Part shown: piece by piece, positions 32,660-43,714 of the stretch
Numbering within the stretch: the stretch's first letter is position 1
How the letters are laid out: each line of letters begins with the position of its first letter
Translations under genes and position numbers: made by a program
Origin: Coprinellus micaceus
Taxonomy: Eukaryota; Basidiomycota; Agaricomycetes; Agaricales; Psathyrellaceae
NCBI GenBank assembly: GCA_951394405.1
Contig: OX596335.1
Coordinates: forward strand, 4,092,001 to 4,156,000
Direction of reading: 5' to 3'
Length of the DNA stretch: 64,000 bases
The notes under the pieces: model-generated
Seen by the model: the letters and a program-made list of their open reading frames with translations, nothing else
Databases searched by the model: none
Told to the model about the DNA's origin: nothing

Positions 32660-35600
32660 ATGGCCACCCAGCAAGATAGCGTGCGGTCACGAAGGAGCGC
32701 AAAATTCACCACTGGCGGTGGGTGTAGTACCACATATCTGTTTCTCCGGCCCTAACATCACCCAGGTCCCAAGGACTGGGCAAAATCTCACTCGAGGAGC
32801 AGCCGAGGCCACAGCACAAGTTCAGATTCTGAAACCGAACGAGAATACCAAACCCATTCACGGTCCGACCCCTCTTCCCAGTCGAGAAGTCGACGCAACG
32901 GCCACACATCGGGTCACTTTCAGCGACATCTCAACGACGAATCTGTCAATGCAGGAAGTCCAGAACCTGCTCCCTCAATTCCATATTGGTCCGCCAAACG
33001 GCACTTGACGTGCGGAAACCCCACCCCCAATCCTCCTTGGTCCCAGAAGCAACCGCCATGGCGAGGAGCAGCACCAGGCCGACTCAAAACAGCGGCAGCA
33101 GCGCTCGTCATGTGCCTGAACATCGACGTCGATCCCCCAGATGTCGTCAAGACCAACCCTTGTGCCGTTTTGGAATGTTGGGTAGACCCTCACACGATGC
33201 CGTCTCACAAGGCTTTGGAGGCCATTGGATCGAATTTACAGCACCAATTTGAAGGATTGAGCCTCAAGATTCAGTACAAACCCATATTGGATCCGTCTAT
33301 TGAAGATCTGAAGCGCTTTTGCACTCAACTGCGACGTCAAGCAGGAAACGACCCCGTCCTGTTCTACTACAATGGACATGGTGTGCCCAAACCGACAGCG
33401 AGCGGGGAATTGTGGTGCTTCAACAGAAATTACACGCAGTATATCCCTGTTTCGTTGCAGGAGCTGCAAACATGGTTGGGCGCCCCTGGGGTCTTCATCT
33501 GGGATTGTTCTTCCGGTGGCCACCTCCTTCAGAACTTCAACACCTTTGCAGAACGGCGCGACAAGGAAGCGGGCACATACGTCGATGGGAAGCAGCCCTT
33601 CATGAATTCCCTCCAACTCGCAGCATGCGGCGCAAACGAGACCCTTCCAACCTGCCCCGAGTTACCTGCCGACGTCTTCACCAGCTGCCTAACCTCGCCG
33701 ATCGATATCGCGCTTCGATACTTCCTAATGACTAACCAACTCCCCTACAAGATCTCATATGACATGCTCACCCAGCTTCCTGGGGATCTCAAGGATAGGC
33801 GAACGCCGCTGGGGGAACTCAACTGGGTTTTCACAGCTATCACAGATACTATCGCATGGACCACCTTTTCCCCCGAAATTTTCACCAAACTCTATCGGTC
33901 TGACCTTTTAATCGCCTCTCTTTTCCGGAACTTCCTCCTCGCAGAGCGGATCATGAAAAACTACAACTGCACGCCCCACACATGGCCGCCACTCCCGTCA
34001 ACCAACACCCACCCCCTTTGGTCGACCTGGGATCTCGCGGTAGATGCTTGTCTGCGGCAACTCCCTGAAATGCTCTTCAAGGGTGGACCTAACCCCGCCG
34101 GTGACCGCAGCCTAGTGTCGAATGCTGGCACCCAACCTGGGCCGATTGGAGGGACTAAGCGTCCGGACCCCAACGCCCAACAAGTCAAAGTTGGGGAGAA
34201 GCCTCACGTATACGCTCCCAGCCGCTTCTTCACCGACCAACTAACCGCTTTCGAGGTTTGGATCTCGCGTGGCGGGTCTGCGCTGACCCGTCGAGGACCC
34301 CTTTCCCTTCCGACAAACGACCACTCGAGCAACAGTCCAACTACGGCTGGGGCTGGCCCACCTCCCATTGTTCCCAACCCTCGAAGTGAATACGACGGTG
34401 TTCCAAGTCATCTTGTTCCTCGTAAGCCACCTGACCAGCTCCCCATCGTCCTCCAAGTCCTCCTCTCCCAGCCTCATCGTCTTCGGGCGCTTATTCTCCT
34501 TTCCCAATTCGTCGATCTTGGTCCATGGGCAGTCCATCTTGTCTTGACCATCGGTATCTTCCCCTACATCTCCAAACTCCTCCAAGCTGCTGGCCAGGAC
34601 CTCCGCCCAGTTCTCATCTTCATTTGGGCTCGCATCCTCGCCGTTGACCCCTCCGTCCAGGTCGACCTCCTCAACACTGGAGGTTACAAGTACTTCGCGA
34701 ATGTTTTGGCGATCAAGAATGATGACCTTCTCCCGAATAGTTCTGAACACAAGGCGATGTGCGCGTTCATCCTAAGCGCTATATCTCGGGACTATCCGCA
34801 TGGGCAAGGCGCGTGCTGGACAGAGGGCGTGTTCGACAACTGCTTCGACCGCCTTGAAGAGTCCGATTTCCTTCTGCGCCAATGGACCGCTTTGTGCATC
34901 GCTCAGATGTGGGATGGTCACGACGAGATCAAGGTCTATGGGGTGGAGAATGGCACGCAGGACAGGCTCATTACCGCACTGGGCGACGACAGCGCGGAGG
35001 TTCGGTGCGCAGCCTTGTACGCTCTGGGTACTTTCATGGGCGCGAGCGGAAGTTCCGACCCGCAGAAGCAAGGCGGAGGTGGCAGCGGGACCATGTATCA
35101 GTTGGAGGAGAAGATCCACTTCAGGATGGAGGTTATGGTCGCCACTGGCGCGACCTTGCGTATCAAGGACGACGCCAGTCCCATGTGTCGCAAGGAGCTC
35201 TTGGTAGTCATCAGTGCGCTGGTGAAGGAGTGGAGGGGATGGTTCGTGGTTTGTGCGTGGCTCTACTGGGAGGAGGATCGCAAGTGGAGGATGAACGGCG
35301 GTGGACCTGGGCTTTTGGGCGGTGGTGGTGTCTTCTCCCATTCGGGCATGAACTTCGAAGACGAAGTTACCTCTCAAGCCGTTGCAGAGTGGCTAGACAA
35401 CTTCCCCGAAGAAGACGGCGTCAGAGAGGAGAACAGGGTACTTTTATCCTCGTTCTTCACCATCTTCGTCGCCCTCCTCGAATTGTCGGTCGATCCTTAC
35501 CACGAGATCGCCACCAACGCGCAAACCATCGTCGACTACGTTATGGCTCTGCTGCTCGAATCCCCCTTTACCCGCCTCCCCAGCAACACCATCAACTACC

Positions 35601-37830
35601 CTCCATCGACAAACGAAGAGCCCCGCGGGTCGCCTCCATCGAGTATCTCGGGACGCAACTATTCTACCCCACCTCCCTACCCCGCCTCGCCAAGCCGCCC
35701 CGAGCGACCTGGCCTCGTTCGAGCTGATACCATGTCGAGTACTCTTTCTTCTGGTGTGACCAACACCCTCCGGCGCACCTCCTCTTTTGCCAACGCTCTC
35801 AAGTCGCTTGCCAACGGCATTGCCTTCCCTTCCGTAACGACCACACCTACCGAGGACGGACGCAACTCTCCCGCCATCCCGTACCCGAAGCGCGAAAAGG
35901 AGTACCCCTCCGTTGACCTCTCGAGACCACCATCGCCCAACCTCAATGTCGCGACGTATGCTTCCCCATACTCAAGACCCTCTACACCTCCAAATTCCGA
36001 CAGGTATCCTGCGTCCTATGGTAGCCTCACACCTCCTTCCACGTACGCCAGCTCGTCCTACCAGCAGGAGGCTGACCAGGCGCCAGGGAGCTTCATGGCG
36101 TTGGATGTGATGGAGGCTCTTATGGAGGAGGACATGGAGCGGTTACGAGCCAGGCGGCGTACTGGCGCTCAGCCAACTCGCCGAGGAAGGGCAAGTTCGG
36201 GAGGTCATAATTATGGGGGAGCACCGAGTCCGAGCAACAGTACTTTCTCGATGGACTCGAATGGGAGTAGCGTGGTTCTTGGACTCGGAACGGGCGCGGG
36301 TATCAGGGACACTTTGCCGTTGAAGAGCACATACTATGATTGGTGCTGTGAGTACTTTAAGGAGCCGCAGATGAGGGTGCGCATTTCGCTCTCCATCTGC
36401 GAGGCGATTGCTAACAGACTCTGTGGTTACAGCAAGCTGAGCCAGACGAACCTGGGAGCGTCCAATACAATCATCAACTTTGGAGGCAACAGCGAAACGA
36501 ACAGGTCACAGTGAACACACAGACCCAGATTCCCTTTGCTGGTACGTCTTACATCACCGGATAGCATTGGCTCTCTCTAATTCGCCTGAGCAGAGGTCTC
36601 GCGATGGGACAAACCTGTGGCCACTCTGCATGTCGCTGGTCACCCTCTGACCATGACCTTTCATTCATTCGACCAGCACCTTGTTGTGGCCAACGAGCAC
36701 GATATGATCTCGTCAGTATCCTTGTCTCACTATACGACCCAGAAAAGAGCTAATTGTCCATCAGCGTGTGGGATTGGGGTCATCGCAAGCGTCTAAATTA
36801 CTTCTGCAATGGCAATCCCAGGGGTACATCTATCACCGGGTTGGAGGTTATCAACCAGGAGAGTGGAGGTATCATCCTTTCGGGTTCGTCCGATGGTATA
36901 GTGCGGATGTACCGCAACTACGATCCAACAGCCGAGCAAGGCCCGCTGCAGATGGTCAGCGCTTTCAGAGCGTTGTCAGAGGTTGTGCCCATTAGGCAAG
37001 GCACAGGTATGGTCATCGATTGGAGGCAGGGTGCTGGCTCGCTCCTTGTGGGAGGAGACTCGAGGGTGATCAAAGTTTGGGACGCCCAAACGGAAACTCA
37101 GGGTTTGGTAAGACGCCATCCATGCACAGTCTTACCCCATGGTTCGCTGACTATTACGTTTCTCTCAGAAGGATCTAGACACGAACTCGGAGAGCCCTGT
37201 CACGGCCATCTGCTCTGATCATATCTCGAACCAGACCTTCATCGCCAGCTTCGCCGATGGGACTGTGAAGGTATTTGACCGTCGGCTAGAGGAAGAAGAT
37301 GCTATCGTTAGGACCTACTCCGAACATGGAAGCTCTGTTCAGAACGTCCGATGGCATCCACGGTATGGGTCGCGATTCTTGTCCGCCAGGTAAGCCATTG
37401 CTTCTCCAGGAATGAATAGAATCATTAACGGCCTTCCAGCACCGATGGTGAAGTCAAGATCTGGGACCTTCGAGGACCCGACCAATCGACCGAGACCATG
37501 TTCCACGGCGACAAGTACGGTCTCTCTCACTTCGATGTCCACCCAACCACCTGTGTCTTCGCCAAGTCTTCCGCAATCATGCCTTCGCGCTGGAAGACCC
37601 AGCGCGTCTCAGTGTTCCACACTGACAAGGGCGAGACCCCTCTTTCCTCCATGGACCTCGCTACAGGCCTTGCTGCCTACCCAATTCGCCCATTGCCTTC
37701 GTCGTCTATACCCCGCTCCTCTTCGATCGCTTTCCACCCTACGGAAATGTTGTATAGCGTTGGCCTGCCAGATGGTTCAGTCCGCGTCATGGGTTGTAAA
37801 ATCGACCCTCCAGAGCTTCCTTCTTGGTAA
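32660..37830 (+). CDS. KOG1: TORC1 subunit Raptor/Kog1/Mip1
   Basis: Scaffold and substrate-recruiting subunit of TOR complex 1. Seven exons: 32660-32717, 32766-36376, 36433-36541, 36594-36711, 36765-37107, 37169-37389 and 37440-37830. It starts MATQQDSVRSRRSAKFTTGG. The raptor N-terminal caspase-like domain follows ([37 protein letters not shown]). HEAT-like repeats come next (PHRLRALILLSQFVDLGPWA, LLNTGGYKYFANVLA), then a long Ser/Pro-rich linker and RQAEPDEPGSVQYNHQLWRQ. A seven-bladed WD40 domain (WDWGHRKRLNYF, KVWDAQ, VKIWDLRGPDQ) ends ELPSW. The first exon is short and its 48-nt intron has a CTAAC branch point. All phases close. Confidence 0.95.
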
Positions 37831-38166: not shown

Positions 38167-40806
38167 TTAACCGCTCTCCACTACGAGGTCCAGGCCGTTT
38201 GGACGAACACCGCCCCTGGTCCAGTGCTCATTCCCAGCAATGAAGTCGCTCCGAACGACCTTCGCGCGATACACGACACTCCCTCCCCTCTCGATCTTGA
38301 CGTACACTCCTTCCACGCGCCCTTCGTAAAACAAAGATTCCCTCTGTACCAACGCCTTCAGCTCCACATCCGACGGCACAGTGTCACCTTCTTGCATGAC
38401 GGGGACTGAGCAAATCGAAGTCTGCGACAGCATCGTCTTCAGGGCCTTCGTTCCCGTCCACCTTCCTGTTGACCGGTCGTAAAAGTCGTACGCAATGAAA
38501 TAATCCGGAAGGCGAGTGTAAGGTATCGAATGCGTTGCGTACATCCACTCCCCGTAGAGGATGTAGCGTTCAGGGAAGTAGGGGTCCCGGTCGAGAAGCT
38601 TAATCAATTCTTCCTTGTGCCTCTCAATCCATAGCCCTAGCTTCTTGAACTGCTCGTGTGTGGAAGAGTTAACATAGTGGGAGCGGTTCTGGACGACGAT
38701 TTGTGACCTGTCATTTGAGAGGGACAAGCCCATGTTCGCTCCGTCGATTTTCTCGGTGATGACGACGCGCCCTTGGATTGCAGCGAGAGCGCTGATGTCC
38801 GCTCTAACGTCATCATCCGTCACAGCGCCGAGGTCTAGAAGGTGGGGTGTGCGAGGGAACTTCGAGATAGTAACTGGGGGAGAGAGCCATGCGACGAACT
38901 CTTGTGCTGCTTGGAACGACCGGATGGTGATTACCGCCTTGAAGCCTTCGTCCAACGATGGCCGATCGAAAGTCTTCGACATCTGGTCTATGGCGTTTCG
39001 TACGCGGCTCCCAGGTGGTAGAGTGGGATGCCCAGCGCGGAGTTGGGCACGCGATTCACAAAGCTCGGGTTCATAGTCAAACCACACGCACATTGGAGAC
39101 GTAGACCAGCTGGAGGCCAAGTCGAGCCACAGCTTCCTGTCGGCAGCGGAGACGTTGCACCGGTCGAGGAGGACTCGTTTGCCTCCAGCCACTCTCCCGA
39201 TTGCGGACTCGCATAGAGCGCGGCTCCCACATTCGTCTTGCGATATATGGACCCAGTGAGAGGGGTCCCGGGCCAAGAGGGACTTGGATGCCCAGGACTT
39301 TCCGGAGCCGGGAAGGCCAACGAACATGAATAAGTCTCCATCCTTGCCCCGCGCGCCTTCGGTAACCATTGGGCATGGAAGTGGTTCCGAAGGGAGCTCG
39401 GGAAGTAATGATTGGCGTTTCCAAATCGTACTACACCATTTGTGCACGAATGCCTCCTGCTGCGAGGTTTCAATACTCCCAGGTCGCAGCGACCGGAGCA
39501 AAGAGATGGCGTCCGACGCAGGGAGATCGGGTTGCGTTCGGTCGTAGGTTGGGAGTTTGAATCCGCAGGCGGACATGTAACACGCTGCGACTGTCCCCGC
39601 TCGGCCTTTGCCTCCTCCACAATGCACCAACAGGGGCAAGTTCCCCTCTTCGAGGAACAACCTCATGACGAGGTCCATCTGCTCTAGGGATGGAGGGTGG
39701 AAGTTGGGGATGGGGAGAAATGTGTTGGATATTGGCTTGCCTTGGAACCAGGATTCGTGTAGAGGCGTTTCTTCTGTCAGGGTGAGGACTCGCCGGATTC
39801 CGAGTGCAGGGGATACTAAGGCGTGGACGTCATCTTCGTGCCGCGGGGTAGACATAATGGCAAGGCGGAAGGGAATAAGCCACCTGAAAAACCGGGGGAG
39901 CTTATACAAGGCCTCCTTGCCAAACCGCGTCGATGACGCAATCGATTTAGGGATGAATAACGCATCCCTGGGCTCTAGCGTCAGGCTGGGAATGGGTGCC
40001 TCATCAGCCAAAGCTTGACGCAAGGCTGGAGACCAGGGAGCGACCAAATAGTGGGCAATTCCGGTTGGAATCTGAGATGCTTCCTCCTCTTGAAAGACTG
40101 CCCCCCACTCTGTGTGTGCGGAGCAGGCAATGAGCTTTTTCATACAGTATGCTCGCAGCTTCGGATCGTCCGCCCGATCGTAAGTGCAGCCGTACGAGAG
40201 CATTGCCAGCTTGAACGTCCCGGAAACCAGCGCAGCGTCTGCGAGCCGAAGAAAACCTTTTTGGCCCTCCGGGGAGAGCGTGACCATATCGATGCTGTAG
40301 CTCCGGGCCTCAGGATCGTCTCCAAAGCAATGCAGAGTAAACGTGAGGTGGTCGAGGAAGTCAAGAGTTGGCGTCTTTGGAAATTGACCTGCAAATAGGG
40401 AATGAATTGACTTGTCCATGTCGTGGTCGTCCTTGAGAGTCAGAGTGATGTGAAAGTGCTTTGGAGGTAGCCCTAGTTGCTTGCGTAGTTGCTGGCCGGC
40501 TGCCCAGATTATGACCAGGTAGAGGACACCTGCATGTTGGTTGCCACCAACCCCCACGCAATGCAGATGGCGAGCGTCTGCCTTCCCTGGCTGAAGGAGT
40601 CGTGACACTTTGGCCTCACCAATAGAGCGAGCCTCTGCTTTAGAGAGGAGGGTGACATGATACCCAAAAGATGGGTCGTATTCTGGAATAGGGAAGGGAA
40701 GGGAGTCGGGAAGCGCCCGTTGCAAGGCGGTGCGAACGAGGAGGGAGATGTCGTCCCCAACGAGTGCAATTGCTCCTCTGAATTTACTCAGGGTGATGTC
40801 AGCCAT
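38167..40806 (-). CDS. four-domain RNA repair protein: 2H phosphoesterase, DSP phosphatase, polynucleotide kinase, RNA ligase
   Basis: An intronless 879-residue frame. Residues ~1-230: 2H phosphoesterase with both HxT motifs (H50-V-T52, H119-I-T121), predicted to open 2',3'-cyclic phosphates. Residues ~280-465: dual-specificity-type phosphatase with the Cys-x5-Arg loop HCGGGKGRAGT (C396, R402). Residues ~490-645: P-loop kinase with Walker A GLPGSGKS (497-504) and DRCN (548-551), as in T4 Pnkp-type 5'-OH kinases. Residues ~650-879: RNA ligase nucleotidyltransferase with motif I EKIDGAN (K686), YGEW (751-754), EGVYVKI (832-838) and YRAKVV (K849). All active-site residues expected for each module are present. 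The domain set overlaps fungal Trl1 tRNA ligase, but the order is reversed and a phosphatase is added. It resembles the multi-domain 'Swiss Army Knife' RNA repair proteins. The substrate is unknown. Confidence 0.88.
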   Translation of the reverse strand: MADITLSKFRGAIALVGDDISLLVRTALQRALPDSLPFPIPEYDPSFGYHVTLLSKAEARSIGEAKVSRLLQPGKADARHLHCVGVGGNQHAGVLYLVIIWAAGQQLRKQLGLPPKHFHITLTLKDDHDMDKSIHSLFAGQFPKTPTLDFLDHLTFTLHCFGDDPEARSYSIDMVTLSPEGQKGFLRLADAALVSGTFKLAMLSYGCTYDRADDPKLRAYCMKKLIACSAHTEWGAVFQEEEASQIPTGIAHYLVAPWSPALRQALADEAPIPSLTLEPRDALFIPKSIASSTRFGKEALYKLPRFFRWLIPFRLAIMSTPRHEDDVHALVSPALGIRRVLTLTEETPLHESWFQGKPISNTFLPIPNFHPPSLEQMDLVMRLFLEEGNLPLLVHCGGGKGRAGTVAACYMSACGFKLPTYDRTQPDLPASDAISLLRSLRPGSIETSQQEAFVHKWCSTIWKRQSLLPELPSEPLPCPMVTEGARGKDGDLFMFVGLPGSGKSWASKSLLARDPSHWVHISQDECGSRALCESAIGRVAGGKRVLLDRCNVSAADRKLWLDLASSWSTSPMCVWFDYEPELCESRAQLRAGHPTLPPGSRVRNAIDQMSKTFDRPSLDEGFKAVITIRSFQAAQEFVAWLSPPVTISKFPRTPHLLDLGAVTDDDVRADISALAAIQGRVVITEKIDGANMGLSLSNDRSQIVVQNRSHYVNSSTHEQFKKLGLWIERHKEELIKLLDRDPYFPERYILYGEWMYATHSIPYTRLPDYFIAYDFYDRSTGRWTGTKALKTMLSQTSICSVPVMQEGDTVPSDVELKALVQRESLFYEGRVEGVYVKIERGGSVVYRAKVVRSDFIAGNEHWTRGGVRPNGLDLVVESG

Positions 40807-41809: not shown

Positions 41810-42640
41810 CTATGGGAATCCTCGATTCGCATTCTGCTGCGCCTGGATCCTATTCCGCCTCCTCTTCCAAAACCCAGCTCCCAAAGCGGCCGATACTACT
41901 CCCAACAACGCAACGACGATCGGAACCGCGACATCTTTCGTCTTATCAGGCTTGGGGGTCGGTGCTGGTATATTGTTGACGATAATCGTTGGTGTGATCA
42001 CAGCCTGAGTCGACGAAGGCGTGGTGGATGTCTGACTCTCTTCTGTGGTCGAACTTCTTGTGGACGTCTTCTCAGTGCTGGGCGTGAGTGTCGTACTCGA
42101 AGTCGTTGTCGAGGAAGACGTGATACTCGATGTCGACGTCGTTGTAGTTGACGTCGTTTGCTGCCTAGTGAGGTCATAACACCCGTCGCTCACTCTCGTT
42201 GGCCCCCCTATCACCACGCACGCAGGGCTCCCATTGAATACGTTATCCGCTGCGACGTTTGTGCAGATCGTATAGAGCACCCCATTCCCCGCCGGACCAC
42301 TGGCGCAAAGCCGGATGACCCCCACCGCTCCTGTGACATTGTATTCCGACGCTCCACCCAACCGTCTGTTGCTCGCCCCGTCGTAATAGGCGATAGCTAG
42401 GTCTTGAGATAGGTGTTCTACCAACACTGTTTGGAAGTCGACCGCTGGTCCTACGCAAGAGGTTGTCGTTGAATCGCGTGCAACAGCGACGAAGCACCAC
42501 GAATCTGTGCCGGTACTGCGTTGGATACATCTCTGTGTTCCTGGCCAGCACGCTCCCTCTGTGAAGATGGATAGAGCCTGGTGGGAGAGTAGTAGGATGA
42601 CGAAGATCAAGAGGCTTGCATGGCAAAGGCGAGGGGCCAT
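41810..42640 (-). CDS. secreted cysteine-rich cluster protein 1, with Thr/Ser stalk and C-terminal TM
   Basis: Most diverged member of a five-gene tandem family. The start at 42640 gives a signal peptide (MAPRLCHASLLIFVILLLSH). The family core follows: EGACWPGTQRCIQRS, a Cys in SCVGPAV, LAIAYYDG, VIRLCASG, YTICTNVAADN and VSDGCYDL. Unlike its neighbours it then has a Thr/Ser-rich stalk (about 60 residues, likely O-glycosylated) and a genuine transmembrane helix (VAVPIVVALLGVVSAALGAG) followed by WKRRRNR, so it is a type I membrane protein instead of a GPI-like one. Function unknown. Confidence 0.75.
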   Translation of the reverse strand: MAPRLCHASLLIFVILLLSHQALSIFTEGACWPGTQRCIQRSTGTDSWCFVAVARDSTTTSCVGPAVDFQTVLVEHLSQDLAIAYYDGASNRRLGGASEYNVTGAVGVIRLCASGPAGNGVLYTICTNVAADNVFNGSPACVVIGGPTRVSDGCYDLTRQQTTSTTTTSTSSITSSSTTTSSTTLTPSTEKTSTRSSTTEESQTSTTPSSTQAVITPTIIVNNIPAPTPKPDKTKDVAVPIVVALLGVVSAALGAGFWKRRRNRIQAQQNANRGFP

Positions 42641-42902
42641 TGACGATGCCAGGATCCCAGTGTGGGGAGTGGGCGGACTCCAAGGCCACCCATGCACCCC
42701 GTCAAGACACAGCAAGCCTCCCGGTATATCAATGTATGTGTCAAAAAGGAACGTGCCCTCAACGGCGAATACACCTGACCAAAGGAGTCGCTAGCGGCGA
42801 GTGCACGTACAAATTCCGAAACACTGCAGCAAACCGATGGAGGTGAACAAAACGGACGATAAAGGGTAAATATAAGGGAGGGTTTTGCCCAACGCTGTGC
42901 TA

Positions 42903-43484
42903 CTATTCGCCACCTTGCCAAAACTTCTTCCCCGTGCACCATTCTTCAGCAAACCTGCTGGTGTGGTTCCGTTGGGCGAGATCGAGTCCACGGTTGGCGG
43001 TGGAGGGTAACAGCCGTCGATGACGAACTGTTGACCGAAGTTTACCGAACACCACCCAGCGTAGGATGGAAGTGTTGTCGGAGACCGCGTTCACGCAGGT
43101 ATTGCGGTAGATGATGTCTGTTCCCAATCCCGTCATGCAAAACCTCACAACCCCAGGATTATCCGGAACTGGCCAGTCGACGCCATCCAAGAGCGTGTGG
43201 TTAATTCCAGAGCAGTATCCTATTGATATGGTTTGCTGGAGATGAGCACGCATAGCAAGCCTGAAGTCGGAGGCTCCGTGCCCATCGTCTGCGGTCGAGC
43301 AATTGGTTTTGGCGTAGCTGGCTTTGAACCCATCGGTGGGGGAGTAGCCCGTGCCGTTTTTATTTCGCTTGATGCACTGGTCGGGGGTAGTATCTGGCCG
43401 GCAAGTCTCGAGGTTGAAGCGCCCAAGCACTTGTACGACGCAAGCGAAAAGGAATGGATAGGCCAGTAGTACCAGGTACCGCAT
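42903..43484 (-). CDS. secreted cysteine-rich cluster protein 2, probably frameshifted
   Basis: It starts MRYLVLLAYPFLFACVVQVL (signal peptide), then RFNLETCRPDTTPDQCIKRN, LAMRAHLQQTISIGYCSG, DGVDWPVPDNPGVVRFCMTG and VNAVSDN. After that point (near 43070) the frame departs from the family. The conserved block GQQFVIDGCYPPPPTVDS and a hydrophobic tail continue in another frame down to about 42791. A single-base indel after the DN codons explains this. Whether the break is real or an assembly error cannot be told here. Upstream family cysteines are kept, except that the expected Trp-Cys after NGTG is lost (NGTGYSPTDG). Confidence 0.6.
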   Translation of the reverse strand: MRYLVLLAYPFLFACVVQVLGRFNLETCRPDTTPDQCIKRNKNGTGYSPTDGFKASYAKTNCSTADDGHGASDFRLAMRAHLQQTISIGYCSGINHTLLDGVDWPVPDNPGVVRFCMTGLGTDIIYRNTCVNAVSDNTSILRWVVFGKLRSTVRHRRLLPSTANRGLDLAQRNHTSRFAEEWCTGKKFWQGGE

Positions 43485-43714
43485 CGTTTGCAAGGGACCG
43501 CCGATAGCACAGGTATGGGGGAAAGTTGGAAAGGCCGCCCCTCATGTCGCAAACCCATCGGGCGCTTACCGCAAACTCTCCTGGAACGTCAAGGTGAGCG
43601 ACACCACGAATTTAACACGCCTTCACTATCTAATTGAGTCTTTAGCGGTGTATTCAGCTACAACGTCCGACCATATCGATATCTTTCGATAACAAGGGTC
43701 CCGAGTCCCGACTC

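Follow-up and report, generated by a model that had tools for sequence, protein, structure and literature searches.

RNA repair proteins of the Swiss Army Knife (SAK) kind unite a 2H-SAK domain, a PTP-SAK phosphatase, a kinase and an RNA ligase in one chain, as does the mushroom protein described here. The SAK names reportedly come from Burroughs and Aravind in 2016, and the kind itself is already known from comparison of genomes and sequences, two of its domains being called 'Swiss Army Knife' by Pfam. The fungal tRNA ligase Trl1 also combines the activities of a ligase, a kinase and a cyclic phosphodiesterase in a single chain. It has this set in common with the SAK protein and differs from it in its ligase family, in its domain order and in lacking the SAK phosphatase. 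The RNA ligase of Naegleria gruberi (titled nick-sealing), which we take to belong to the Rnl5 group, shares the nucleotidyltransferase domain and differs in the region before that domain, which in the mushroom protein is a kinase. Ligases of the Rnl5 type have an additional ligase-specific domain of their own. For the kinase module, the closest solved relatives by both sequence and fold are Rhizopus azygosporus 9d8a and Lichtheimia corymbifera 9drz (solved with GDP), which were solved as chains of 176 and 165 residues as against a module within 879 amino acids. Described relatives of the phosphatase, namely human DUSP23/VHZ, archaeal SsoPTP and TkPTP and engineered ShufPTP, use an Asp as acid where the mushroom protein has an Asn, and unlike them the mushroom phosphatase is part of a multidomain protein. 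Our literature searches found neither a paper on SAK domains in fungi nor one on the kinases 9d8a and 9drz; the part of one jumbo-phage paper that was available employs the SAK phrase.

We analyzed a stretch of 64,000 nucleotides (the window) from the Coprinellus micaceus genome, which comprises 50.3 Mb in 17 contigs. A preliminary description made from the DNA letters had placed a four-module RNA repair enzyme at 38167..40806. These coordinates were correct, and the gene lies on the minus strand, a detail absent from that description. The reading frame runs from an ATG at 40806 to a stop at 38167 with no internal stop and no intron, and the plus strand over the same interval is closed. The frame is conserved and not a chance opening, as indicated by a Met at the same start in 102 of 121 aligned rows and by four Pfam domains over cut-off. 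The gene is single-copy in the genome, where the sole further match is an 88-residue kinase-like stretch. Its convergent neighbor (window 33005-36514, plus strand) encodes the TORC1 subunit Raptor (Raptor_N, E 2e-63), and two adjoining minus-strand reading frames occupy 41810-43493. One of these, of 301 amino acids (41810-42715, minus strand), has a Ser/Thr-rich stretch and hydrophobic segments and no Pfam match at E up to 1e-5.

Table 1. Features of the SAK-type gene and its predicted protein, in window coordinates.
Feature	Position	Strand	Basis
Whole reading frame, Swiss-Army-Knife-type RNA repair protein, 879 aa	38167..40806	minus	reading frame, Pfam, homologs
2H phosphoesterase domain, residues 1-135	40402..40806	minus	Pfam 2H-SAK 34-128; pLDDT 93.5 (residues 1-300)
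2H HxT motifs, H50 and H119	40657-40659 (H50); 40450-40452 (H119)	minus	
All-helical TPR-like block, residues 140-275	39982..40389	minus	
PTP-SAK Cys phosphatase, residues 304-454	39445..39897	minus	
Phosphatase site: C396, R402, N368 (general-acid place), E446 (Q-loop)	39619-39621 (C396); 39703-39705 (N368); 39469-39471 (E446)	minus	
P-loop polynucleotide kinase domain, residues 490-640	38887..39339	minus	
Kinase Walker A GLPGSGKS, residues 497-504	39295-39318	minus	
RNA ligase nucleotidyltransferase domain, residues 645-872	38191..38874	minus	PF09414, profile match, Foldseek
Ligase motif I EKIDGAN with K686	38749-38751 (K686)	minus	

The Pfam scan matched 2H-SAK, PTP-SAK, AAA_33 and RNA_ligase, all four above their curated cut-offs and in one chain. 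The 2H-SAK domain (PF22547) covers residues 34-128 (E 4e-18, 66.2 bits against a cut-off of 27) and holds two HxT motifs, H50-V-T52 and H119-I-T121. PTP-SAK (PF22784) matched residues 304-454 along the complete model (positions 1-153 of 153; E 2e-55, 187.5 bits), and this module contains a CX5R phosphatase P-loop, HCGGGKGRAGT, in which C396 and R402 are present in 121 of 121 rows. AAA_33 matched in two stretches (E 3e-13) and RNA_ligase (PF09414) at residues 680-851 (E 3e-32). Both Pfam and the structural model bear out the order 2H-DSP-kinase-ligase put forward in the preliminary description, and H50/H119, C396/R402, the Walker A motif and K686 were found where it had placed them. Its contrast with Trl1 also holds, since the order differs and a phosphatase is added. 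The bacterial Pnkp equivalog TIGR04075, a whole-length kinase-phosphatase-ligase model, scored 25.9 bits against a cut-off of 750. A HAD-type SAK domain, PF10307, had no match in the genome, and control genomes were equally silent, so this result is uninformative.

Structure modeling, a check set beforehand, gave a confident prediction for the entire chain (pLDDT 91.9 and pTM 0.87, both whole-chain scores), with the first 300 residues modeled at a pLDDT of 93.5. Neither this check nor the domain and fold matches of the ligase part (see below) contradicted the preliminary description. The model predicts a TPR-like helical block between the 2H and phosphatase domains. Foldseek placed VHZ/DUSP23, PNKP-type kinases and RNA ligases nearest among solved structures, and no 2H protein was among the structural matches listed. 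A separate structure search with residues 1-300 returned mainly TPR proteins, all with E above 0.001.

To survey the family we searched 7998 scored candidates and obtained 388 homologs at E up to 0.001. Named rows among the matches listed belong to what we take to be mushroom genera and their kin, while many other rows are metagenomic; the nearest among the matches listed is from Coprinellus micaceus (85%), and the Coprinopsis cinerea protein is 63% identical. The protein matches used were the best 120 of 388, the best 120 of 250 and 27 of 27, making the observed spread a lower bound. By precomputed Pfam annotation, 118 of the best 120 of the 388 matches carry all four domains, the two exceptions (P0092 and P0098) being without 2H-SAK. 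We also assigned layouts to 264 proteins with our own domain profiles, which were built from 96 homolog rows and make this count partly circular: 2H-middle-PTP-KIN-LIG in 122, 2H-PTP-KIN-LIG in 13, PTP-KIN-LIG in 4, and 2H-PTP-KIN and LIG-PTP-KIN in 1 each. The remaining 123 have fewer domains (KIN-LIG 66, LIG 54, others 3) because one search admitted short proteins only. Two Pseudogymnoascus proteins have the full domain set. We found nothing that places the mushroom protein outside the SAK RNA repair proteins; its Asn/Glu phosphatase site, described below, marks a fungal type.

Catalytic positions of three modules are invariant in all 121 aligned rows: C396, R402 and E446 of the phosphatase, K503, D524 and D548 of the kinase, and K686, D688, E753, E832 and K849 of the ligase. 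The 2H site is more variable, H50 being conserved in 110 of the 121 rows and H119 in 114. At least one of H50, T52, H119 and T121 is altered in 20 rows, one of them truncated; at least one His is lost in 14 and both are lost in 4. Eleven of these 20 rows are named Mycena, Favolaschia or Roridomyces. In P0064, P0067, P0076, P0092, P0114, P0118, P0120 and others, from several Mycena and allies, 2H residues are changed although phosphatase, kinase and ligase are intact at the positions examined. Alignment or gene-model faults may lie behind some of the departures. Among 23 further proteins found with a split relative (see below), the 2H residues are kept in all 16 that align there with the usual order. 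This pattern suggests that the 2H step is the dispensable one in the family and that opening cyclic ends would not be essential; perhaps another enzyme opens them where 2H is lost.

A split version of the SAK protein was found on a 30.9-kb contig filed as viral in IMG/VR (IMGVR_UViG_3300024981_000137; L093:5938-8386). Here, a 565-aa reading frame with 2H-SAK, DSP/PTP-SAK and AAA_33 is convergent with a second gene, which encodes a 257-aa RNA ligase, and the phosphatase is of the Asp type. Neighbors include M13 peptidase, IMP dehydrogenase and methyltransferase genes, and the contig may be from a giant virus. We scanned the surroundings of further relatives with our own domain profiles (E up to 0.001), covering 80 of 367 bacterial relatives, many at short loci, and 69 viral-contig loci. 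The ligase stood alone in all 80 bacterial loci, with no partner domains in the available stretch. Of the viral-contig loci, some have a kinase near the ligase, and the 2H-phosphatase-kinase partner occurs only in L093. A viral scan with the split protein as query returned its own contig only, and one with an alignment as query returned the L093 contig again and at least 24 weaker matches, mostly to the kinase part.

The acid loop reads IPDF in DUSP23/VHZ and IPNF in the mushroom protein, so that the Asp general acid of classical PTP/DSP enzymes is replaced by N368. At this position Asn occurs in 119 of the 121 rows, Asp in 1 and a gap in 1. Together with the 23 further proteins (144 in all), Asn is combined with Glu446 in 122, Asp with Glu in 1, a gap with Glu in 1 and Asp with a non-acidic residue at 446 in 19, and 1 has neither part. 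Every one of the 122 Asn rows carries Glu at 446 and, outside the fungal type, 19 of 19 keep Asp without Glu; the two patterns track two groups of relatives, so that these counts may reflect one or two events and are not statistical proof. Other candidate acids are E345 (118 of 121 rows and 22 of the 23 others, with one gap) and E346 and E375 (each in 120 of 121 mushroom rows). Thus, E446 separates two phosphatase types in the alignment, yet would not be the sole candidate acid. According to the part of PMC12848742 that was available, typical D-to-N variants are set back by two to three orders of magnitude, and D63N in ShufPTP costs ~70-fold with acid catalysis still shown; the backup acids proposed there are the Q-loop residues E132 of TkPTP and E134 of VHZ and, on another loop, E40 of SsoPTP. 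The fungal type looks like a natural case of a backup Glu turned main acid, as judged from the alignment. Our literature search for such an Asn/Glu swap, in which subscription journals were thinly covered, found nothing.

We consider it probable that the gene encodes a single-chain heal-and-seal enzyme of the SAK type for RNA breaks with 2',3'-cyclic-phosphate and 5'-OH ends; the reactions, their order, the acid and the substrate are read from the domains. This reading draws on the four domains over cut-off, the like composition of 118 of the best 120 of 388 homologs, the 11 sites invariant in 121 of 121 rows, the confident whole-chain model, the nearest solved folds, and the L093 contig, where the four modules sit together as two neighboring genes. 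The departures at the 2H site, the lack of a 2H protein among the structural matches listed and the further candidate acids weigh against it. In such an enzyme the 2H domain would open the 2',3'-cyclic phosphate of the cut RNA, the Cys phosphatase would clear the remaining 2' or 3' phosphate, the kinase would phosphorylate the 5'-OH, and the ligase would join the 3'-OH to the 5'-phosphate. For the phosphatase step, the most likely proton donor would be the Q-loop Glu446 in place of an Asp, given its presence in all 122 Asn rows and the behavior of ShufPTP D-to-N and VHZ E134 in the available part of PMC12848742. The helical block may serve to keep the domains together or as a docking site for a partner. 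The route would need no Tpt1 or NAD+ and would work beside Trl1.

The preliminary description had proposed that the Cys phosphatase removes a 3' or 2' phosphate. The conserved CX5R module stands, whereas the chemistry cannot be assumed because the general acid is Asn in the fungal group; such a residue could point to low phosphatase activity or to a different substrate. RNA triphosphatases of the Cys-phosphatase fold without the Asp are known. We regard it as rather unlikely that the phosphatase acts away from the 3' end, on a substrate whose leaving group is good, for example a 5' triphosphate or another phosphoanhydride, with 3' ends healed by 2H and Tpt1 or not at all. The Asn in 119 of 121 rows, the decay of the 2H site where the phosphatase does not decay, and the Tpt1 matches in the genome would all fit that alternative. 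However, Glu446 accompanies every Asn, the corresponding Glu has been proposed as a backup acid in relatives (PMC12848742, available part), and the conventional Asp is present in the Asp-type proteins, which share the architecture.

As the preliminary description had suggested, we searched the genome for Trl1 and Tpt1, and both were matched. The Trl1-type ligase domain PF09511 occurs at two places (C6:3610742 and C7:966498), in copies 88.7% identical at the DNA level over 2668 aligned bases, each followed downstream by the Trl1-type kinase domain PF08303. No cyclic phosphodiesterase domain was found in a Pfam scan of three frames per copy. Tpt1 matches cover model positions 2-177 in two pieces at one place, and a second place is partial. 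Some of the Trl1 and Tpt1 matches run across stops, which we took for introns. In the 879-aa protein itself, a search for PF09511 up to E 1 gave nothing. With Trl1-type and Tpt1 matches present, the standard tRNA-splicing route appears to be filled and the SAK protein to be an additional system. Replacement of Trl1 and Tpt1 by the SAK protein is unsupported because of these same matches.

The same matches bear on whether the protein is a housekeeping RNA ligase, with a part, for example, in mRNA splicing of the endonuclease type or in tRNA maturation, as opposed to an enzyme of damage or conflict. Its single copy, its occurrence in many mushroom genera and a ligase tree that follows the kinship we presume for most mushrooms would suit a housekeeping role. 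We nevertheless find this account improbable: the standard route looks filled by Tpt1 and a Trl1-type ligase and kinase in two copies, and the oomycete, rotifer and some ascomycete sequences in the clade are more like an accessory gene. In the available part of a paper with desiccation data, the main ligase domain belongs to a different Pfam family, whose best matches are in bacteria or phages, and RNA ligase functions are without enrichment.

The ligase module is of the RNA type, in agreement with the preliminary description. It has a profile match to the Naegleria gruberi RNA ligase (E 5e-5), which Foldseek also returned (6vt4, E 1.7e-7, 16% identity); the nearest solved relatives are mostly RNA ligases, and weaker profile rows carry DNA ligase names. 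Similar to Rnl5-type ligases, the module has a nucleotidyltransferase domain with the motif I Lys (K686 in 121 of 121 rows). Pfam reports no Rnl5-type additional domain, and a kinase precedes the ligase. Homologs are often labeled 'ATP dependent DNA ligase' in source databases, and a DNA repair enzyme, in keeping with that label, the weaker profile rows and the mammalian DNA repair kinase PNKP as a fold neighbor of the kinase module, is very improbable, since the ligase is PF09414 with RNA ligases as best profile and fold matches and an obvious DNA substrate for the 2H domain is missing. A DNA ligase identity is rejected on these domain and fold matches.

We built a ligase tree from 34 chosen rows of this one short domain. 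Thirteen Agaricomycetes form one clade (100/97), much of it without resolution, together with two rows of Pseudogymnoascus, two of Phytophthora, one of Adineta and one without a name. Ceratobasidium is the partner of Phytophthora (84/90), and a clade made up of Agaricomycetes alone is rejected (p 0.020). In a quick tree of 80 rows, Aureobasidium (an ascomycete) and Ramicandelaber fall outside the mushroom clade. Inside the clade, the ligase pieces of P0210 (Adineta steineri) and of P0181 and P0209 (Phytophthora) share 44-55% identity with that of mushrooms. These rows may reflect transfer or, for Adineta, whose piece comes from a contig of 701 bases, perhaps contamination; those of Phytophthora come from contigs of 2.1 Mb and 50 kb. 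Taken together, the tree modestly favors movement between lineages.

The ligase of the window gene itself groups with Coprinellus and Coprinopsis, an ordinary placement. The preliminary description had read the missing intron as a hint of retroposition or transfer. The absence of an intron was confirmed; recent retroposition or transfer into the C. micaceus genome is unsupported because the gene is single-copy and its nearest rows are Coprinellus and Coprinopsis. Additionally, the contigs of 5 of 12 full-length metagenomic homologs exceed the coding length by only 167 to 788 bases, a weak hint that the family commonly lacks introns, unless the short contigs are transcripts.

A more far-reaching reading, which we hold as tentative and on balance doubtful, is that the fungal SAK phosphatase, having given up the Asp, would work as an RNA 2'/3'-terminal phosphatase on its Q-loop Glu alone, a residue described in PMC12848742 as a backup in VHZ, TkPTP and an engineered PTP, and that, with the other modules, it would form an NAD+-independent, Tpt1-free machine that spread between fungi, oomycetes and rotifers and is split in a large virus. 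If the heal-and-seal reading is right, mushrooms own a complete one-chain RNA repair kit beside the tRNA-splicing ligase, often filed as a DNA ligase. With one recombinant protein it becomes testable which phosphatase clears a 2' or 3' phosphate from RNA in the absence of Tpt1 and whether Glu can serve a Cys phosphatase as the sole acid, and the gene offers a concrete means of learning what cuts RNA in mushrooms.

In P0262, a metagenomic protein of 930 aa, the ligase comes first and is followed by phosphatase and kinase; the phosphatase has the fungal Asn/Glu site, and 2H has no match. Its ligase is divergent and sits on a very long branch in the 80-row tree, where its placement was disregarded. 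P0103 (1224 aa) and P0112 (1335 aa) are annotated with an extra PfkB sugar kinase domain, which may represent a fusion or a gene-model error.
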